Shown piece after piece: positions 37,256 through 39,035 of a stretch of DNA of 53,942 nt. Made by a program: the position numbers and the translations under genes. Origin of the DNA: Balneolaceae bacterium. Lineage in GTDB: Bacteria > Bacteroidota > Rhodothermia > Balneolales > Balneolaceae. The notes under the pieces were generated by a model, which saw nothing but the letters and a program-made list of their open reading frames with translations, was not told the origin of the DNA and searched no databases. Numbering within the stretch: position 1 is the stretch's first letter; each line of letters opens with the position of its first letter. The stretch spans positions 1 to 53,942 of the forward strand of contig RECI01000199.1 in the NCBI GenBank assembly GCA_007694095.1, written 5' to 3'.

Positions 37256-37801
37256 ATGAAAAAAATAAGCACATTCAGTTTCATTCTTCTCTTAGCAATT
37301 ACTGCACTGATGGCTGCTCCCGAAGCTAAGGCCCAGGATATGAAAATTGGTTTTGTAGAGCCGAGAGCTATCCTGGAACGAATGCCGGAAATGAGGGCTG
37401 TACAGCAACGCTTACAAAACTTCCAGGAAAGAAAATTGAACGAACTCATCGAAAAGGAACGGGAACTGCAAACAGAAATTGAACTTTATCAACAAAAAGT
37501 CGGGGTAATTTCTGAACAGGCCCGCCAAAGTGAAGAGGAAAGGTTAACAAGACTTGACCAGGAATTCCGTCAATTGCAGGGTCAGGCCCAACAGGAACTC
37601 CAGGAACAGAGAGCACGCTTGATGGCACCTTTACTGGATCAGATACAGCAATCCATTAATAATGTAGCCGCACGAAAAGGCCTTGACTATGTTCTGAACA
37701 CCACTACTTCCACAGGTGATGTAATTATTCTCTACGTATCGCCACAGGTACAGGCTGAATATGATATTACATCAGATGTAATGGCTGATCTTGATATTTG
37801 A
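37256..37801 (+). CDS. OmpH/Skp-family periplasmic chaperone, paralogue 3
   Basis: 181 aa with signal peptide (M-K-K-I-S-T-F-S-F-I-L-L-L-A-I-T to A-K-A-Q), a strand M-K-I-G-F-V-E-P-R-A-I-L, a long coiled coil (about 50-130) and L-D-Y-V-L-N-T-T before the C-terminus, matching the L-D-F-V-L-N of paralogue 2. It starts 20 bases after paralogue 2 and is the last gene before a strong terminator. The shared D-Y/F-V-L-N-x-T-S-x-T-G-D-x-I/V core suggests paralogues 2 and 3 are the closer pair. Confidence 0.9.
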   Translation: MKKISTFSFILLLAITALMAAPEAKAQDMKIGFVEPRAILERMPEMRAVQQRLQNFQERKLNELIEKERELQTEIELYQQKVGVISEQARQSEEERLTRLDQEFRQLQGQAQQELQEQRARLMAPLLDQIQQSINNVAARKGLDYVLNTTTSTGDVIILYVSPQVQAEYDITSDVMADLDI

Positions 37802-37839: not shown

Positions 37840-37871
37840 AAAGGCAGTCATTTTTTGGCTGCCTTTTTTTT
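37840..37871 (+). terminator. Intrinsic terminator of the bamA-skp run
   Basis: A 10-bp stem (AAAGGCAGTC with GGCTGCCTTT, one G-U pair) around a 7-base loop is followed by a run of Ts to 37871. It begins 38 bases after the third skp stop, in the right orientation. This is the clearest terminator in the window. Confidence 0.85.
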
Positions 37872-37883
37872 GGTTAATTACTA

Positions 37884-38364
37884 GTGTCGTGTCAACTGTA
37901 AAATTATGGGTAAAGCAAGAAAGTCTGTGTATAGTTGATAGAAAACCAACTTCAGAATCAGGGTAATCATTATCAGTTTTTTTAAACATGATGCAATCAG
38001 GGTAATCATTGGTATTCGTTCACTGCTATTATGGGGCAGGCGCGAACGATGTTTGGACGTAACCCCCTCGATTCTGATCAGCGCCCTAACGGGTTGTTCA
38101 CTCGGGGGCGGCAAGTTATGACTTTGTACCCCCGGGCTGCATTGGGCAAATCGCTACGCGATTACCGGCATTGCGCCCGGCGCTTTTCCCGATTTCAATA
38201 ACCACGCTTGTTTCAGAAAAGTCCTACAATTCCATGCCAAAGGTATCCTGCGCGACAGTTCAACGCCGTAGGCATCCCTGCGGGACGATTCCACAGTTTC
38301 AGGCATAGACATCCCGATGGGAAGATTCATTGCTTCACCCGTTCTTTTATATTTGACACGACAT
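37884..38364. mobile_element. Gene-less insertion-like element with terminal inverted repeats (MITE-like)
   Basis: The ends carry inverted repeats: TGTCGTGTCAA at 37885-37895 and TTGACACGACA at 38353-38363, 11 of 11 matching (13 of 14 if extended outward). A TA dinucleotide flanks each end (37882-37883 and 38365-38366), as expected of Tc1/mariner-IS630-type target duplication. The interior has no credible ORF. It holds a 16-bp direct repeat, an AATCGC/GCGATT hairpin near 38150, and imperfect units around CATCCCTGCGGGA (38273) and CATCCCGATGGGA (38310). It is visibly GC-richer than its surroundings from about 38020 on. Likely a non-autonomous or decayed element; the family assignment is inference. 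Confidence 0.55.
37956..38010. repeat. Two direct copies of AATCAGGGTAATCATT
   Basis: Identical 16-bp copies at 37956-37971 and 37995-38010, 39 bases apart start to start, inside the inverted-repeat element. They could be transposase subterminal sites or leftovers of nested insertion. Confidence 0.7.
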
Positions 38365-39035
38365 TAATTGCGGGTAATAATGGCGGAGAGAATGAAATAA
38401 TACAAAGGAAAATAGAGAGATAAGAGGGTGAGTAAAAGAGGGGTTTCTTCCAACATCCAAAGCATTGCTACGATCATAAAAAAGTAAGGCACACTCAATA
38501 ACAGGGTTGTTTTCTGCATGGTTTTTGTACGACTTGGATAGATGAATTTCAATGGGGCAAATATGAGTGCTGAACAGAAAATGAGAATCACTGATGAAAG
38601 CCAGGGCTCAAACTGAAAAAGCCAAAAGTAGAAAACAAGGAAGTTCCAGTATGAAGGAAAGCCCAGGAAATAGTGATCGCTTGTTTTTGCCTGGGTATGG
38701 CTGAATCCAAAAAGACTGGTAATCAACACAATGGCACATACCAGGAAATGGATATCTAAAAAATACCAGGCCCAGAAAATGGGTGCAAAAACCCAGGTTA
38801 CATAATCAACAAGGTTGTCGATCAATCCACCATCGGTATTGGGCGTATGGGTTTTAACATCCGCTTTGCGGGCAAGTGTTCCGTCAATGAAATCTATCAC
38901 CGCGGTAAGAGCAAGAACTCTCATCGCGTTACCGGCATCACCTTTAACAATCAGAACAATAGACCAGAATGCAAGTACTATCCCCGATGCCGTAAGCAGG
39001 TGTACTGCCATGGCTAAAGCTTTTTTATACATCAA
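38364..39035 (-). CDS. pcs: CDP-alcohol phosphatidyltransferase, phosphatidylcholine-synthase type
   Basis: Predicted inner-membrane enzyme joining CDP-diacylglycerol to choline. 223 aa with about seven to eight membrane helices. The active-site motif is D48-x2-D51-G-x2-A-R, then exactly 12 residues, then G69-x3-D73-x3-D77. The usual family spacing is 8-9 residues, while the x12 spacing is that reported for bacterial phosphatidylcholine synthases. Start is ATG 39035 or 39032. The stop codon at 38364-38366 coincides with the edge of the inverted-repeat element, so the C-terminus may have been altered by the insertion (rhizobial Pcs is about 240 aa). No choline transport or other lipid genes are adjacent. 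Function rests on motif spacing only. Confidence 0.75.
   Translation of the reverse strand: MMYKKALAMAVHLLTASGIVLAFWSIVLIVKGDAGNAMRVLALTAVIDFIDGTLARKADVKTHTPNTDGGLIDNLVDYVTWVFAPIFWAWYFLDIHFLVCAIVLITSLFGFSHTQAKTSDHYFLGFPSYWNFLVFYFWLFQFEPWLSSVILIFCSALIFAPLKFIYPSRTKTMQKTTLLLSVPYFFMIVAMLWMLEETPLLLTLLSLYFPLYYFILSAIITRN

Follow-up and report, generated by a model that had tools for sequence, protein, structure and literature searches.

A probable IS630-type MITE inserted at the stop codon of a CDP-alcohol phosphatidyltransferase gene in a Balneolaceae bacterium

We analysed a 53,942-nucleotide stretch of a Balneolaceae bacterium (contig RECI01000199.1; here called the window) and found that a 481-bp element lying between two convergent genes is very probably a MITE of an IS630 subgroup (Tc1/mariner-like) that entered the stop codon of the gene for a CDP-alcohol phosphatidyltransferase (Table 1). 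We favor this reading because the element has matched ends and TA flanks, its ends belong to a multicopy family, the orthologous site of a related species is free of it, and sister species harbor transposase-bearing elements whose ends are the same. The element is short and carries no transposase gene, its inverted repeats exceed chance, and multiple copies share its ends, as expected of a MITE, for which a size range of 50 to 500 bp has been given (PMC10969869). The TA duplication and the ends held in common with a transposase-bearing element of the IS630 family are those of an IS630-derived MITE.

Table 1. Features of the element and its surroundings (positions in the window)
Feature	Position	Strand	Basis or remark
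Element (very probable MITE)	37884..38364	.	481 bp between two TA; absent from the orthologous site in G006
Left copy of TA target duplication	37882..37883	.	Context C-TA-G; sequence
Right copy of TA target duplication	38365..38366	.	Within stop codon of - strand gene; sequence
Left arm, 37 bp with TA included	37882..37918	+	Inverted-repeat alignment, shuffles, end family
Right arm, 37 bp with TA included	38330..38366	-	Inverted-repeat alignment, shuffles, end family
Two direct copies of AATCAGGGTAATCATT, 39 bp apart	37956..38010 (37956-37971, 37995-38010)	+	Sequence comparison
GC-rich dispersed repeat, element positions 177-315	38060..38198	+	About ten other genomic copies without the element's ends
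Second dispersed repeat, element positions 372-440	38255..38323	+	Also present in G018
Left neighbor, OmpH-like periplasmic protein gene	37256..37801	+	PF03938
Intrinsic terminator belonging to the ompH-like gene, close to but outside the element	37840..37871	+	Terminator prediction
Right neighbor, CDP-alcohol phosphatidyltransferase gene	38364..39035	-	PF01066; stop codon overlaps insertion point

An earlier note, made from the sequence alone, had described terminal inverted repeats matching at 11 of 11 positions, a TA at both flanks, and an interior that is richer in GC and devoid of coding sequence. All of these features are present, although the arms turned out to be longer than described. 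The left end reads TGTCGTGTCAA at 37885-37895 and is followed by its exact inverse, TTGACACGACA, at 38353-38363; these 11-bp ends are each other's sole matches in the window at up to 1 mismatch. The outermost base pair of the element is unmatched (G at 37884, T at 38364), and the right end is altered, with TAATGTC in place of TAGTGTC. With the TA included, the inverted arms extend over 37 bp, of which 30 are matched. When the region was subjected to 200 dinucleotide-preserving shuffles, the best ungapped 37-bp inverted repeat reached 24/37, and none of the 200 reached 30. Neither of the two small open reading frames in the element (77 and 71 amino acids) matched a Pfam family, and no tandem repeats were found in it.

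The earlier note had further proposed that a full-length relative might mobilize the element and had named a transposase gene with matching ends as the thing to look for. This was found in sister species. G006 is the closest relative that has both neighboring genes, and a 1.2-kb element there has TAGTGTCATGTCAA at each end and two overlapping frames with matches to HTH_32, DDE_3, and the NCBIfam IS630 transposase. Similarity between our element and this insertion sequence is limited to the ends. Related transposases are present in G004, G015, G016, G022, and G026; they adjoin the same ends in G015, G016, and G022 and, in G004, at one of two fragments. The transposase genes of G026 are only distantly related (26% identity), and inspection of one of them showed no such ends. 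Named genomes (Bacteroidota, Chlorobiota, archaea, and others) supplied 80 related transposase loci, and at 45 of these a pair of such ends, each with at most 2 mismatches, lies 1.18 to 1.22 kb apart. The 14-bp ends of this 1.2-kb subgroup in congeners and named genomes, TAGTGTCRTGTCAA, and its TA flanks (mostly CTAG) are those of the element, the difference being that the subgroup encodes a transposase and the element does not. The arms of the element lean slightly to the downstream end of the full IS630 elements; a derivation of both arms from the 3' end of the insertion sequence was considered and not adopted, there being just a weak tendency in that direction.

We observed that the subgroup, with its near-constant length (∼1.2 kb) and ends, occurs in Bacteroidota, Chlorobiota, Deltaproteobacteria, methanogenic archaea, and others, and this wide range of hosts, together with the near-constant ends, may interest specialists of mobile elements. 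In G006 (C345), G016 (C124), G022 (C22), and G015 (C91), the transposase consists of two overlapping frames split at a run of eight A's (AAAAAAAACG), an arrangement that looks like programmed -1 frameshifting. A literature search on IS630 in Balneolales and on IS630 frameshifting returned nothing specific.

The other half of the proposal, a full-length relative in the home genome itself, did not hold. The subgroup transposase and PF13358 gave no match in the home assembly, its matches to NF033545 all lay far below the cutoff, and no transposase gene was seen within 1.5 kb of the home-genome end motifs (neighboring open reading frames judged by reading). As this assembly yielded no IS630 transposase, the home copy is probably immobile at present, although a collapsed transposase copy could be missing from the assembly, since it consists of 324 contigs. 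A partner transposase in the same genome bears on current mobility and is not needed for membership among MITEs. The same-ended IS630-type elements of sister species could move this MITE family; since the full-length relative was found in congeners only, mobilization here and now is offered as a proposal.

If the element moved as IS630 elements are known to, a transposase acting in trans would have bound both ends, excised the element, and placed it in a TA, duplicating that dinucleotide. The target TA would have belonged to the stop codon of the CDP-alcohol phosphatidyltransferase gene; this codon now reads TAA and reads TAG with the element removed, so that the protein is left unchanged. For ISY100 of Synechocystis, an IS630 element, cut-and-paste transposition into TA with TA duplication has been reported in vitro (PMC2170065); what it has in common with our element is this mechanism class, and ISY100 is autonomous, unlike the element. 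The closest described parallel is RUP of Streptococcus pneumoniae, linked to IS630-Spn1, which is likewise short, noncoding, and TA-flanked, with ends that match an IS630-family insertion sequence (PMC2229807). RUP measures 107 bp and has 108 copies, whereas sizes and interiors are variable and copies fewer here, and its proposed partner is known in the same species, whereas none was found in the home assembly. By description, the element can also be likened to Correia/NEMIS of Neisseria, a MITE with inverted ends, terminal TA, and size variants, although at 107 to 155 bp it is shorter than the 481 bp found here (PMC2229807). As an ordinary new case of a well-known type of genomic parasite, the element leaves existing knowledge of MITEs unaltered, but a MITE family and its likely source insertion sequence are now documented in one genus. 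This is useful for annotation and accounts for recurrent inserts between genes and for some contig breaks.

The GC content of the interior (∼38020-38319) is 0.51 to 0.58, compared with 0.32 to 0.38 in the A+T-rich DNA just outside and 0.33 to 0.49 in the neighboring genes. Going beyond what the earlier note described, the interior is, as judged by sequence comparison, largely made up of other dispersed repeats, and since its GC-rich part is a separate dispersed repeat also found without the element's ends, the element is a mosaic. This GC-rich repeat is ∼130 bp long, forms two putative hairpins (CCCCC ... GGGGG and CCCCGGGC ... GCCCGGGG), and has about ten copies in the home genome. The end motif lies beside none of the copies read, with the exception of a partial relative of the element on contig C25 whose ends are decayed. 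This second-best place in the home genome is 88% identical over element positions 25-297 and lacks intact ends; it has the left part as well as the repeat core in common with the element. It is conceivable, if rather unlikely, that a composite element captured the GC-rich hairpin repeat as cargo and that the C25 copy is a remnant of such a move; if so, an otherwise unrelated repeat family could be spread by IS630-type ends.

The interior also bears on the main alternative, namely, that a complete 1.2-kb IS630 element lost its transposase by internal deletion and drifted, without ever being mobilized as a short element. An IS630 origin would suit the ends and the length class, and the slight lean of the arms points the same way. 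However, neither tblastn nor blastn detected a transposase remnant in the element, the interior consists of repeats also found elsewhere, a second locus, on C25, holds a related composite piece, and many other short copies exist in the home genome. We therefore consider such a decayed insertion sequence improbable.

The earlier note had named empty sites as a check. The ompH-like gene is conserved across the genus, and in G006 the same convergent genes are parted by a short, terminator-bearing spacer that lacks the element. When the element is removed from the home sequence and one TA is kept, the remainder aligns to this spacer with a gap-free join. G006 reads TT at the exact position of the TA, which is expected for a diverged species and makes it an imperfect stand-in for the preinsertion sequence. 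A second home element, on C44, gave the same picture, its orthologous spacer in G006 being likewise element-free. The G010 spacer also lacks the element but is longer and different. In G022 (C74), the spacer between the ompH and CDP-alcohol transferase genes holds an independent member of the end family that differs from the element and is decayed, as read by eye.

It is very improbable, and already contradicted by the data, that the element is a conserved regulatory or structured RNA region with merely complementary ends. Its strand does fold better than its shuffles (z = -4.0), and a location between convergent genes would suit such a region, but the sequence is missing from the spacers of both G006 and G010, an Rfam scan of the whole window gave no match, and the ends recur, TA-flanked, at unrelated places.

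With regard to copy number, it is the ends rather than the whole unit that recur. Searches of the home genome (4.56 Mb) returned the full 481-bp unit once, and among 92 family genomes (E ≤ 1e-8) it matched the home genome and, by its core only, G006. The terminal motif TAGTGTCGTGTCAA occurs at 39 places in the home genome at up to 2 mismatches, versus 26 for the reversed control; nine of the real places have at most 1 mismatch. The longer pattern TAGTGTCRTGTCAANNNTAAANTGNCGGGTRA, which includes the subterminal part (≤3 mismatches), has 15 places in the home genome and 74 in G022 by itself; 12 of the 28 genomes of the genus are positive, and the reversed control pattern gave 0. The counts for this longer pattern, together with the absence of 30/37 arms from all 200 shuffles, refute a chance inverted repeat, an idea favored only by the shortness of the 11-bp motif. 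The further TA-flanked copies that the earlier note had suggested looking for were thus found, many of them complete short elements with both ends present and mostly in a CTAG context. Short paired copies in the home genome include those on C44 (138 bp), C237 (197 bp), and C261 (216 bp). At G000:C261:3915-4268, the 216-bp MITE abuts another of ∼140 bp, with one TA common to both, as if one MITE had entered the target TA of the other.
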